Shown in pieces: positions 1 to 14,631 of a stretch of 23,504 nt of DNA. The position numbers were made by a program, and so were the translations under genes. Numbering within the stretch: the first letter of the stretch is position 1; each line of letters opens with the position of its first letter. Source of the stretch: a virus; IMG/VR virus record IMGVR_UViG_3300030380_000205, positions 1 through 23,504 of that record; one strand, written 5' to 3'. The notes below the pieces were generated by a model. That model was not told where the DNA came from. It made no database searches and saw only the letters and a program-made list of their open reading frames with translations.

Positions 1-192
1 GTTTCAAACAGTTACACTAAAACAGAAGCAGACACACGTTACCCATTCAAAGGTAACAACTCAATCATAAGATTAAACGGACAGACAATAAGTGCAGACA
101 TTACAATAGATAGTGATGAGAATGGTGTAAGTGCAGGTCCTATAACACAGAACGCTACAGTTACTGTTAATGGATATTGGAGTATCGTATGA
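1..192 (+). CDS. Tail fibre protein, C-terminal end (5' truncated by window)
   Basis: An open frame runs from base 1 to a TGA at 190-192 and has no start inside the window, so only the last 63 residues are seen. It contains TKTEADTRYPFKG, a motif typical of the collagen-like/trimeric shaft of phage tail fibres, then a beta-rich end (ITIDSDENGVSAGP...) finishing in YWSIV. It would be the distal part of a host-recognition fibre of the virion tail. The next gene's ATG (189-191) overlaps this stop by four bases (ATGA), so the two are translationally coupled. Fibre identity is inferred from the motif and the neighbours; the N-terminal virion-anchoring part is not visible. Confidence 0.72.
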   Translation, partial: VSNSYTKTEADTRYPFKGNNSIIRLNGQTISADITIDSDENGVSAGPITQNATVTVNGYWSIV

Positions 193-557
193 CAAGTCAA
201 TTAAATGTAGATACTATAGCAGACAAGGCAGGTAGTGGACCTGTTGGGTTGACTAAACAAATTGCAGCTAAAGCATTTGGAAATGCAGGTAGTGATGCAA
301 GTATTAGAAACAGTTTAAATATTTCAACTAATACAGACTCTGGCACTGGTTTATATACATATGGACTATCTAATGCGTTTACTGCCGATATAGACCAACA
401 CTGTGCTATGGCAGGTATGTGTACTGGAGGAGCTAGATACCCTAGAACTGGAACGACAAATACTACTGCATCAGCAATAGAAATACATATTGAAAATTCT
501 AGTGGTTCAAATACAGATTCTAGTCATACATTTCAACTTACTGGAGATTTAGCATAA
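189..557 (+). CDS. Tail-tip-like mini-protein, array copy 1
   Basis: This 122-residue protein starts at the ATG overlapping the previous stop. An in-frame TTG at 177 is less likely because it lies inside the fibre gene. Layout: a polar N-terminus (TSQLNVDTIADKAG), a central KQIAAKAFGN..ASIRNSLNIS block, then D(S)GTGLYTY and a C-terminal ...FQLTGDLA. The same skeleton (N-terminal L-VN-L, QG-AKAW, DSFN-S, D-GTG, ending in GDLA or GDSA) occurs in the next three genes, so these are paralogues. The 'DSFNVSS..D.GTG' block is one I associate with distal domains of marine phage tail fibres. It is probably a separate tail-tip or receptor-contact subunit. This copy is the most diverged: NSLNIS replaces DSFNVS and the Trp is Phe. 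Confidence 0.7.
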   Translation: MTSQLNVDTIADKAGSGPVGLTKQIAAKAFGNAGSDASIRNSLNISTNTDSGTGLYTYGLSNAFTADIDQHCAMAGMCTGGARYPRTGTTNTTASAIEIHIENSSGSNTDSSHTFQLTGDLA

Positions 558-955
558 TGGCTAGTGAACTTAAAGTAAATAAACTAACAGGTGTAACGAC
601 AGCAGGGTCTATATCTGTTACAGGTGAAGGCAATAGTACAACAACTAATCTGCAACAAGGGTTGGCAAAGGCTTTTTGGGATTTAGATGGCACAGGCACA
701 ATCGCCTTGCAAGACTCATTCAATGTTAGTAGTGTTGCTGACTTAGGCACTGGTTATTATCAAATTAATTACAACAATATTTTTAACTCCATAAATAATG
801 TGCCATTAAACCATACATTTAATCATGTTGATTATGACACAACATTAACAAATGGAAAAAATGCTTCTTTGGCTCTTTTTTACACATTTAAATCAACAAA
901 TGGAACTCTACAAGACAGTAAGCCATTTGGTGCAACATTCGGAGACTTAGCATAA
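557..955 (+). CDS. Tail-tip-like mini-protein, array copy 2
   Basis: This 132-residue paralogue's ATG overlaps the previous TAA in the string TAATG. It begins MASELKVNKLTG, continues TTNLQQGLAKAFWDLDGTG, LQDSFNVSSVADLGTGYY, and ends FGATFGDLA. The QGLAKAFWDLDGTG..DSFNVSS..D.GTG stretch is the clearest match in the array to the conserved C-terminal domain of marine phage tail fibres. The part after GTG (about residues 72-115) differs strongly between copies, as expected for the receptor-contact surface, while the ends are conserved. No signal peptide or membrane segment is visible. The role is inferred; none of the copies has an obvious shaft of its own, so they would need to bind the fibre or another tail part. 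Confidence 0.72.
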   Translation: MASELKVNKLTGVTTAGSISVTGEGNSTTTNLQQGLAKAFWDLDGTGTIALQDSFNVSSVADLGTGYYQINYNNIFNSINNVPLNHTFNHVDYDTTLTNGKNASLALFYTFKSTNGTLQDSKPFGATFGDLA

Positions 956-1347
956 TGGCTAGTATATTAAGAGTAAACACATTAACAGATGCAAGTAGTA
1001 ATAACTCAACACCTATGGCTACTATTAATCAGGGAACAGCAAAGGCTTGGATAAATTTTACTGGTATATCAACTACTGCTGAACGAGACTCATTTAATGT
1101 TTCAGGTTTAACTGATGGTGGTACAGGAAATACCACAGTTGCATTATCAAGCAATATGTCAAATACAAACTACACAGGTTCTTGGTATCAAAATGGCTCT
1201 ACAGGCTCTGGAAAGAGTGATTTTAACAATGATTATGGTGGTGGATTTGGCGATAGAGCCACAAATTCTGTTGGTGTATTTGGATTTTCAAACACTCAAT
1301 TTGATGCGTTTTTTAATGATTTGATTTTATTCGGAGACTCGGCATGA
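955..1347 (+). CDS. Tail-tip-like mini-protein, array copy 3
   Basis: This 130-residue paralogue starts at a TAATG overlap with copy 2. It reads MASILRVNTLTDASS at the N-terminus, then INQGTAKAWINFTGI, RDSFNVSGLTDGGTGN, and ends LILFGDSA. AKAWINF...DSFNVSGLTDGGTG is very close to the tail-fibre distal domain seen in other marine phages. The region after GTG is Gly/Asn/Ser-rich (NGSTGSGKSDFNNDYGGGFGD) and unlike copies 1, 2 and 4, so divergence is concentrated in the C-terminal half. It is co-translated with its neighbours. A distal receptor-binding or decoration role is inferred from family and position only. Confidence 0.72.
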   Translation: MASILRVNTLTDASSNNSTPMATINQGTAKAWINFTGISTTAERDSFNVSGLTDGGTGNTTVALSSNMSNTNYTGSWYQNGSTGSGKSDFNNDYGGGFGDRATNSVGVFGFSNTQFDAFFNDLILFGDSA

Positions 1348-1787
1348 CCAGAGCAGCAGAAATAGCAAAGATTATTGGCAAGGGTTCTGTAGACATACAT
1401 GGTGAAGCAGGTACAACTAGTAGTGGGTCAACAGGTAAGACTACTAATTTGCAACAAGGGTTGGCTAAAGTTTGGATATATTCACCTGCAACATCGGCAA
1501 GTATATCAGATAGCTTTAACATTGGTTCAATTACAGATGGTGGCACAGGCGAACAAGACATGACTTTTACTTCAGCTATGGCTACTGCTAACTATTCTTC
1601 ACCTATAGGTGCAGACACAGATAGAGTACATAATACAGGTGCAGGTCTTAGAGTTACGCAAGTTCTTACTAAAACCACACTTTTAATTGATGCAAGGGCT
1701 GACAGAGCAACCACATCTGCACAATACGCAGGTGGAGAAGAAGATGCCATATTCTATAATATGACTACATTTGGAGACTTAGCATAA
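1344..1787 (+). CDS. Tail-tip-like mini-protein, array copy 4
   Basis: This 147-residue paralogue starts four bases before the end of copy 3 (ATGA). Its N-terminus differs from copies 2 and 3 (MTRAAEIAKIIGKGSVDIHGEAG). It then shares TTNLQQGLAKVWIYS with copy 2 almost exactly, followed by ISDSFNIGSITDGGTGEQ and a C-terminal MTTFGDLA. The DNA for TTNLQQGLAK (near 1440-1467) is nearly identical to that of copy 2 (near 641-668), while the flanks differ, which suggests recent exchange or duplication between copies. It is the last of the array; the next gene is a membrane protein. The function is inferred to be tail-tip or receptor contact. Confidence 0.72.
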   Translation: MTRAAEIAKIIGKGSVDIHGEAGTTSSGSTGKTTNLQQGLAKVWIYSPATSASISDSFNIGSITDGGTGEQDMTFTSAMATANYSSPIGADTDRVHNTGAGLRVTQVLTKTTLLIDARADRATTSAQYAGGEEDAIFYNMTTFGDLA

Positions 1788-2017
1788 TGGAGATTGATGG
1801 CACTATTATATGGAATGTAGTGTTGACACTAATCATCATGCCATTTGCTTGGGCATTTAATAAGATGTTTGCAGAAGTGAAACGATTGCAAATACTACTG
1901 AATAAGACAAGAGAAGAGTACGCATCTAAAGAAGATTTGCGTGATACGTCTGGTCGTGTGATGGAAGCCTTGCACAGGCTAGAAGATAAACTGGACAAGG
2001 TTCTGAATGTGAGGTGA
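1787..2017 (+). CDS. Small N-terminal membrane protein, holin/lysis-accessory candidate
   Basis: This 76-residue protein starts at a TAATG overlap with the last tail-tip gene. Residues about 8-24 (IWNVVLTLIIMPFAWAF) form one hydrophobic segment. The rest is a charged helix rich in Lys, Glu and Leu (VKRLQILLNKTREEY...RLEDKLDKVL), probably coiled coil on the cytoplasmic or periplasmic face. One TM plus a coiled coil is common among small phage lysis proteins (holin partners, i-spanins), and the gene stands at the head of a run of small membrane proteins that ends in the endolysin. I do not recognise a named family. Confidence 0.65.
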   Translation: MEIDGTIIWNVVLTLIIMPFAWAFNKMFAEVKRLQILLNKTREEYASKEDLRDTSGRVMEALHRLEDKLDKVLNVR

Positions 2018-2021
2018 CATT

Positions 2022-2492
2022 GTGCTTGAAATGCTAATGGTAGCGAATAGTGCTTTTGCAGTCATCAAACAAACAATAGAAAATGGTCGTGATATAAGTT
2101 CAGCAGGATCAGCAATCTCTAAATTTATAACTGCTGAAGATCAATTACAAAAAGATTTACATAAAAAACGTAACAGCATATGGACAGCTTTTCTTGGTAA
2201 GACTGACAATGACCTTGAAGAGTTTATGGCATTAGAGCAAATAAAACAAAAACAAGATAAGCTGCGAGAATATATGCAGCTGTATGGCAGACCAGGACTA
2301 TGGACTGACTATCAACATTATTGTGCTGAAGCAAGAAAATCTAGGAGGGAAGCCGCTATCAAAGCTAAAAAACGTAGAGAGTACATAAAAGAATTAACAT
2401 TGAAGATAATATTAGGTATTCTTGTTACAGCTATGTTAGCTGGTGTTATAACTGTTCTTGTAATTATAGCTAAGAAACGAGGTATAATATGA
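2022..2492 (+). CDS. C-terminally anchored coiled-coil membrane protein
   Basis: This 156-residue protein most likely starts at GTG 2022, because GAGGTG at 2011-2016 lies five bases upstream; ATGs at 2031 and 2037 are too far from it. The first 50 residues are helical (QTIENGRDISSAGSAISKF). A conserved-looking LYGRPGLWTDYQHY lies at about 87-100 and a basic linker (RKSRREAAIKAKKRR) at about 105-119. One transmembrane helix follows at about 128-150 (ILGILVTAMLAGVITVLVIIA), ending KKRGII. The IENGRD...LYGRPGLW pattern recurs in marine phages next to lysis genes, but I know of no assigned function. It overlaps the next ATG by four bases. A tail-anchored membrane protein of the lysis block is the best description. 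Confidence 0.65.
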   Translation: MLEMLMVANSAFAVIKQTIENGRDISSAGSAISKFITAEDQLQKDLHKKRNSIWTAFLGKTDNDLEEFMALEQIKQKQDKLREYMQLYGRPGLWTDYQHYCAEARKSRREAAIKAKKRREYIKELTLKIILGILVTAMLAGVITVLVIIAKKRGII

Positions 2493-9615: not shown

Positions 9616-9654
9616 AAGTATATCTATGCAATACTGTACTGCATAGATATACTT
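9616..9654 (-). terminator. Perfect 15-bp inverted repeat, terminator of the leftward small-gene operon
   Basis: AAGTATATCTATGCA (9616-9630) is exactly inverted at 9640-9654, with a nine-base loop. It lies 13 bases past the last stop (9668) of the minus-strand operon. Read leftwards, the stem is followed by GTTTTGCATTTC, a fair U-rich tail. The AT-rich stem could also be a protein-binding palindrome. Confidence 0.55.
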
Positions 9655-13833: not shown

Positions 13834-14237
13834 TGTATGGTCAAGATTATGAAGACGCACTAGAGATGGTGCAACAAAGTGAGTTTCACAGTTGGTGGGA
13901 TGATGAACTTATACAAAAATATATTGAAAAACCTTTATCGGTTAGACAGTATAAGATTATGAGAAACGATTTACATGAGCCATTGGTGTTTGCTACCTGG
14001 GGTTTTCCTAATGAAGAGCAGGTAAAAACATACATGGATAGCCAAGAGTTCCCTGCTGACGCATACAAGGGTGGTGGCAAAGATGTTTGGGTTATAGACT
14101 TTATTGCAAAAAAAGGTTATACAAGAAAAGGATTCCTTGCTTTGAAGAAGGGTTTTGCAAGGAGTGGGTATCAAAAGGCGTTTTGGTTTCGACCTGATAA
14201 AAACAAAGCAGGTTGGCACACATGGAAAGGAATATGA
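13830..14237 (+). CDS. HlyC-like (RTX toxin-activating) acyltransferase homologue
   Basis: This 135-residue protein overlaps the terL stop (ATGA). Its sequence aligns by eye with E. coli HlyC along nearly its whole length. [11 protein letters not shown]...I..[13 protein letters not shown] parallels [51 protein letters not shown] parallels [29 protein letters not shown] parallels WFIDWIAPFG. H20 and D90 fall where HlyC has its catalytic His23 and Asp92. The family has a GNAT-like fold and transfers acyl groups from acyl-ACP to Lys of RTX toxins. There is no RTX toxin here, so the substrate is unknown: possibly a virion or host Lys, or a GNAT-like protein with a structural role. The C-terminus is shorter than HlyC's. 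Confidence 0.72.
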   Translation: [135 protein letters not shown]

Positions 14238-14238
14238 T

Positions 14239-14631
14239 ATGGGAGCCGTAGTTAGACCAATAAAAAAGATTGTAAAGAAAGCTACAAAGGCTGTTGATAA
14301 AACTTTGATAGAGCCACTAGAAAGACCAGTAAAGAAAGCTGTGAATGTAGTTGAGAAAGTTGGTGCAGATATTGTAGAGCCTTTGGAAAGACCAGTTAAG
14401 AAACTAAGTCAAGAAATTTTAGAGACTGTTACAGGTACAGATAAAATGGATTATAGGCAGCCACAGCAGCCAGAAAAAACACCAGAGATAACACCTGAAA
14501 TAGTTGAAGATGAAAAGCCAACAATAACAACAAGATATGCAACAAGAGGTAAGCGTGCAGGACAGGCTGGTACAATCATAGAAGGTTTTGGCGTAATACA
14601 AAGAAAGAAATCACCGAAGGCAATAACATAG
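14239..14631 (+). CDS. Repeat-containing basic structural protein candidate
   Basis: The ATG at 14239 is set by AAAGGA at 14226-14231 (the upstream frame is a shadow of the acyltransferase gene). The 130-residue product has a Lys/Val-rich helical N-terminus with the nonapeptide EPLERPVKK repeated exactly at residues 25-33 and 47-55. An acidic Pro-rich linker (PQQPEKTPEITPEIVEDEKP) follows, then a Gly/Arg C-terminus. The 22-residue period suggests an amphipathic helical repeat that packs against DNA or membrane. It is probably a minor head or portal-associated protein; no named family. Confidence 0.6.
   Translation: MGAVVRPIKKIVKKATKAVDKTLIEPLERPVKKAVNVVEKVGADIVEPLERPVKKLSQEILETVTGTDKMDYRQPQQPEKTPEITPEIVEDEKPTITTRYATRGKRAGQAGTIIEGFGVIQRKKSPKAIT

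Follow-up and report, generated by a model that had tools for sequence, protein, structure and literature searches.

Ackermannviridae carry branched receptor-binding complexes of four tail spikes, in which the conserved N-terminal parts assemble and the variable C-terminal parts bind (PMC11414711). The conserved N-terminal domains have also been proposed as recombination sites (PMC11414711). In HTVC010P-like phages, tail-fibre and C1q host-recognition genes form variable regions called metaviromic islands, and the variation described there affects whole genes or their C-terminal parts (PMC3909814). In Puniceispirillum phage HMO-2011, gp28-gp41 are annotated as tail fiber and C1q proteins. Both the protein family studied here and the HMO-2011 array were in the databases as annotated tail fibres before this analysis, and it was known that fibres vary in these phages (PMC3909814). 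The array described below is a concrete organisation that bears on the ways in which phages of abundant marine bacteria alter their host specificity: putative docking tags are separate from exchangeable bodies, the joints are standard, and the exchange points can be predicted in advance.

By analogy, the closest functional parallel of the array would be the branched receptor-binding complex, since in both cases several receptor-binding proteins (a predicted role in the array) occur per phage. The slot-specific tags suggest that here, too, N-terminal parts could join several such proteins into one complex. The Ackermannviridae spikes are large and contain Gp10-like XD and TD domains, whereas the array subunits are ~130 aa long with a ~27-residue tag, number up to eight family members, and have start signals inside the cassette. 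XD or TD linker domains are absent from the array proteins (these are too short and have no Pfam hit), so the array may work like a branched complex without being a member of that group. Compared with the metaviromic islands, the array varies between two fixed joints; the accessible part of PMC3909814 mentions neither fixed slots nor cassettes with two joints nor start signals embedded in them. No description of the organisation into slot tag, body, and embedded start was found in the open-access literature searched, HMO-2011 included.

The window (the whole stretch of DNA analysed) is a 23.5-kb record of a marine virus of bacteria, and its genome is cut. The TerL is nearest to those of HTVC034P/HTVC010P-type pelagiphages (about 52%). 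The array is flanked by tail genes, which end the contig at the right, and by a presumed lysis region. The contig start falls inside the array, and the copies in the window are the last four slots (E to H) of a larger one (Table 1). The truncated reading frame ahead of slot E has 90% identity to L118:733-1224, a 163-aa reading frame (151 aa from the MAYIG start). It is the tail of an array gene of ~150-165 aa, complete in L118, and not the end of a long fibre; the likely full gene (L118:769-1221) matches tail-fibre PHROGs.

Table 1. Features of the array end and its right-hand neighbours in the window.
Feature	Position	Strand	Remarks
3' end of array gene ahead of slot E	1..192	+	ends TVNGYWSIV; cut by contig start
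GGAG in gene ahead of copy 1	179..182	+	precedes copy 1 ATG; codon pattern in relatives
Copy 1, slot E (MTSQLNVDT)	189..557	+	tag 189-266, body 267-554; phrog_11355 E 1.7e-13
GGAG in GD codons of copy 1	543..546	+	10 nt 5' of copy 2 ATG (TAATG overlap)
Copy 2, slot F (MASELKVNK)	557..955	+	tag 557-664, body 665-952; phrog_11355 E 3.2e-11
GGAG in copy 2	941..944	+	precedes copy 3 ATG; family codon test
Copy 3, slot G (MASILRVNT)	955..1347	+	tag 955-1038, body 1039-1344
GGAG in copy 3	1333..1336	+	7 nt 5' of copy 4 ATG (ATGA overlap)
Copy 4, slot H (MTRAAEIAK)	1344..1787	+	tag 1344-1463, body 1464-1784; phrog_11355 E 1.5e-13
GGAG in copy 4	1773..1776	+	precedes ATG of 76-aa gene; family codon test
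76-aa gene 3' of array	1787..2017	+	missing, like the array, from both sibling phages
156-aa anchor gene	2022..2492	+	synteny with siblings resumes; DNA similarity to both from window 2010

The original prediction described four consecutive overlapping related genes, and a profile search bears out their homology well beyond chance. All four match PHROG 11355 ('tail fiber protein', E 3.2e-11 to 1.5e-13). Three copies align over ~112-117 of the ~130 model positions, copy 2 over 61 only. With copy 3 as the query the other three copies in the record are recovered (E 2e-8, 8e-7, 1.4e-4). The skeleton noticed from the sequence (QG-AKAW, D-GTG, and a GD-A end) is likewise real: the invariant residues M1, Q24, A27, K28, S42, N44, D50-G52-T53-G54, G119-D120, and A122 are present. 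The tags share the pattern M-x-S-x-L-x-V-x-x-L. Pfam has no family for any of the four copies.

Relatives were gathered by scans of viral contigs and an iterated profile. The set contains 346 unique family members, of which 342 stand alone as genes of about 130 aa (mostly 119-153 aa); this fraction may be biased because the scans were seeded with stand-alone copies. The fused long form, in which the domain is the C-terminal end of longer fibre-like proteins (L186, L187, L007), is rare. With almost all members stand-alone and no long fibre next to the array, the idea that the tip of a long fibre was detached and multiplied here is not supported in that form. A bacterial genome scan with one divergent copy as the query found no relative, which is a weak negative.

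In the relatives the slots follow a fixed order: A, B, C, two unrelated genes (as at L022:4275-5136), D, a 'YIGxxP' gene, E, F, G, H. The order is strict in 60/66 loci (629 concordant versus 15 discordant pairs). Array variation among relatives, also foreseen, takes the form of a copy number between 3 and 8 family members. The N-terminal tag of each copy in the window matches that of the gene in the equivalent position in other phages; for copy 4 these genes are L118:2436, L160:3245, and L105:1074 in slot H, and the slot F label of copy 2 is backed by the slot order in relatives. HMO-2011 has the same order and the same GGAGAC..GCAT overlapping junctions. Its family members (gp29, gp32, gp34, gp37, gp40) occupy slots A, C, D, E, and G, whereas the window contains E to H. 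In contrast to the window, HMO-2011 has a C1q-domain gene at the slot-F position, a 364-aa fibre piece at slot H, and packaging genes of another type.

Several variants of the array were also observed. Rearranged or duplicated orders are rare: A B D H G E F in L070 and L071, E F H G in L074 and L076, and E F F G in L019. There are two 'P(F/Y)IGxxP' genes, one preceding slot A (L022:2638-3087) and one preceding slot E (L022:5546-6004), as if each array half had its own anchor protein. Tail-fibre PHROGs are matched by the former and by the L118 relative of the latter. The C1q-domain gene of HMO-2011, gp31 (L005:6753-7277), starts with MASVLKVE and lies at the slot-F position, which suggests that bodies of another fold can fill a slot. 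A slot-F tag on this C1q body was not accepted, as position and an 8-residue resemblance were its only grounds and the slot-F profile lent it no support. Slot H (MSKAAELAALIG / MTKAAELAK) is in many relatives a 357-385 aa protein (e.g. L022:7192-8265, L171:6363-7520) that matches only the last third of phrog_4492, a long tail-fibre family of 1096 positions.

The slot labels were set by hand from the first ~9 residues, and columns 10-27 were tested separately. In these columns identity is 52% within the same slot and 25% between different slots (z 85). Further along the protein almost no slot effect is left: the corresponding values are 31% and 30% in columns 61-75, 14% and 13% in columns 76-119, and 20% and 20% in columns 120-129. 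Slot specificity therefore sits in the first ~27 residues; this tag is inherited by position and the body is not. The body from QG-AKAW on is hypervariable and almost independent of the slot, in line with the highly different C-terminal parts seen in the window. None of the 532 same-contig pairs exceeds 37% identity in the C-terminal part. Multiplication by recent tandem duplication within this genome was dropped for this reason, and the positional match of the tags speaks against it as well.

Exchange of bodies between slots is directly visible in copy 3. The body of this slot-G gene has 93-94% DNA identity to a slot-B gene (L086:2728-3183, also L168). Identity starts at GC(A/G)AAGGCTTGG and stops at GGAGAC, and both flanks are unrelated. 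Overall, 41 body pairs are at least 75% identical in DNA, and in 14 of these the tags are less than 60% identical; bodies up to 98% identical sit behind different tags. In the 14 swap pairs homology starts at most 12 nt from the AK codon (14/14) and ends at most 9 nt from the stop (11/14). A mosaic test run without pre-selection by slot, and without selection at AK, agrees. Shared segments that span the start codon (n=1,575) have 5' ends that peak at -14 (GGAG) and 3' ends at 0 to +15 of AK; none extends beyond the first 150 nt of the body, except 23 that cover the whole gene. Among the segments that cross the stop (n=1,572) 99.7% begin at most 30 nt from it, with the caveat that neither the pairs nor the segments counted here represent independent events. 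The predicted cassette exchange is thus bounded by the two blocks that had been noted, QG-AKAW and the stop/start junction. The dN/dS of the bodies is low (median 0.15) and shows them to be under purifying selection, so the diversity looks reassorted rather than hypermutated. Together with the swaps, these sequence data point to reassortment of old, functional bodies. Hypermutation, as in the target of a diversity-generating retroelement, was rejected because there is no excess of amino-acid change in the body.

The near-identical DNA reported at the junctions and in the QQGLAK block was found again: a 54-nt repeat at 543/941 (80% identity), a 24-nt repeat at 537/935/1767, and a 39-nt QQGLAK repeat between copies 2 and 4 (82%). 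The junctions listed in the original prediction (543, 941, and 1773) are real, but the equivalent at 1333 between copies 3 and 4 and the GGAG at 179-182 were missed. GDLA is the C-terminal end of nearly every family member, and its codons are unusually fixed. The glycine is GGA in 297/298 genes versus 24% elsewhere in the same genes, the aspartate is GAC in 84% (background 32%), and the alanine is GCA in 94% (background 41%). In 293/298 the next ATG overlaps the stop (TAATG or ATGA), with GGAG 10 or 7 nt ahead. The unrelated array gene ending in YWSIV embeds GGAG in its W-S codons (TGGAGY) in 46/51 relatives, and in 46/51 relatives it has an ATGA overlap with the next start. If no neighbour overlaps, the family member ends in FGD, LG, FR, or FY instead. 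Fused or non-overlapping members lack LA or the whole GDLA motif, and where there is a downstream spacer the motif varies or is gone. Most simply, the junction would hold an embedded ribosome-binding site that couples translation of the two genes, and the DNA identity there would be mainly due to this site. The GDLA end would then be largely a DNA signal, similar to a Shine-Dalgarno sequence, for the overlapping next gene; a purely structural role as a protein end was dropped. QG-AKAW, which is followed by no start codon, likewise has a raised codon bias (GGG 44% versus 10%), and this suggests that both joints serve as homology blocks for recombination as well.

AlphaFold models of copy 1 (pLDDT 83, pTM 0.69, beta-rich) and copy 3 (pLDDT 83.8, pTM 0.73) are both beta-sandwich-like with an extended N-terminus, and the variable columns map to the later strands and loops. 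In BFVD there are 48 matches with E<=1e-3, to stand-alone phage proteins and to tail fibres of Synechococcus phages Syn5, ACG-2014f, S-TIM5, and S-CAM7. The match to the marine cyanophage fibres (Syn5, S-TIM5, ACG-2014f) is one of predicted fold; there the matching domain lies inside a 760-1350 aa protein, while in the array it is a separate gene. Foldseek searches of PDB with both models gave no confident match (best E 0.12-0.7, phiAB6 and Pam1 tailspikes included), and a sequence profile search of solved structures gave nothing meaningful.

Two sibling contigs, with 96% identity to the window in TerL and 98% in the capsid protein, lack both the array and the 76-aa gene. Their DNA is 85-88% identical over long stretches from window 11966 to the right end, and 72-92% identical in blocks from window 2010 to about 10070. 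At the same site, 5' of the common 156-aa gene, their products are 583+817 aa or 1336 aa long and have matches in fibre and virion structural families. The array is also present in HMO-2011 and in records with HMO-2011-type TerL (70-80% identical). A TerL of the window type was sought in the array-carrying contigs and none was found in the records certain to carry the array, which shows either different backbones or absent genome parts. Given siblings without the array and arrays on other TerL backbones, the array is an exchangeable alternative to long fibres.

At the level of sequence, the comparisons establish ordered slots, slot tags, two-joint exchange of bodies, purifying selection, and GGAG at a fixed distance from the next start. 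Homology, predicted fold, and position suggest that the products belong to the tail. The four genes probably form the end of an ordered array for several different small beta-sandwich tail-fibre subunits, with slot tags, exchanged bodies, and embedded starts; the tags would dock and the bodies would bind receptors. Its best reading is a candidate modular, multi-subunit receptor-binding tip. Bodies have moved between slots and phages as ~300-bp cassettes that run from the QG-AKAW block to the GGAGA..GCAT(A)ATG junction. Because the junction encodes both the GDLA end and the GGAG for the next gene, an incoming cassette would carry its own downstream start signal. Each tag may give its subunit a separate docking position on the tail or a fibre hub, the bodies, probably the host-contacting part, may bind different host-surface receptors, and coupled translation may hold subunit amounts in step. 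Reassorting old bodies could then shift host range without new mutation.

The idea of a modular receptor-binding set survives in its core, the related stand-alone genes similar to tail fibres. Free assembly into 'mixed tips' fares less well. If all copies competed for one dock on the same fibre, virions would have mixed or different tips, and the common body fold, the tag pattern shared by the copies, and the lack of a repeated body within any one contig would all fit. Strong slot specificity of the tags and a fixed gene order would however be needless for one shared site; slot-specific docking is likelier, and alternative tips are an unlikely explanation. It is quite improbable that the products are absent from the virion and act during infection as fibre assembly helpers, soluble decoys, or surface-binding proteins. 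The two non-family genes within the array have no assigned function and would agree with such a role, but the homologous domains form the ends of longer fibre-like proteins, the viral structure matches are tail fibres, and the corresponding site in the siblings is taken by long fibre or virion structural proteins.

The identities at the junction and QG-AKAW could also mark recombination sites only, with the embedded GGAG having no translational role. The codon bias at QG-AKAW, where no start codon follows, argues for this. Against it, the GGA lock is near total only at an overlapping next ATG, the GGAG ahead of the overlap comes from other codons in an unrelated array gene, and members with a downstream spacer vary or drop the motif, and we consider it rather doubtful that recombination is the whole explanation. 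Old duplication in place followed by divergence, with no cassette transfer, is barely credible. Most body pairs are too diverged for any transfer to show, but near-identical bodies behind different tags, such as those of copy 3 and L086, already contradict it unless the swap pairs are assembly chimeras.

Extended beyond the window, the reading of slot-docked, exchangeable subunits leads to a tentative generalisation, held at somewhat less than even confidence. Abundant marine phages would carry six to eight or more tagged slots in a fixed rack, and any ~300-bp receptor-binding body could be fitted into each of them through joints standardised in DNA; the result would be a multi-receptor tip re-tooled by reassortment. 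If this is true, an exchanged body keeps the reading frame, the docking tag, and the ribosome site for the next gene. The tag, AKAW, and GGAGA-GDLA are sequence markers by which candidate receptor-binding bodies in viromes can be catalogued. GDLA would also be a case of a 'conserved protein motif' that is largely a ribosome-binding signal.

At the array site of some other relatives (L115:3799-5783, L141:5733-7835, L112, L162) there are runs of a different gene family of 150-185 aa. Some of its members start with M.SILKVD.LQ, contain VLQV, and end in.MEIGG; these runs are possibly a second kind of mini-fibre array. Elsewhere in the window, positions 9616-9653 align to both siblings in the opposite orientation too and therefore form an inverted repeat, which might be a hairpin terminator or an origin element. 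A small reading frame ahead of the portal gene (14155-14631) contains an internal protein repeat (IEPLERPVKKAV / VEPLERPVKKL), which a DNA repeat at 14357-14402 matches.
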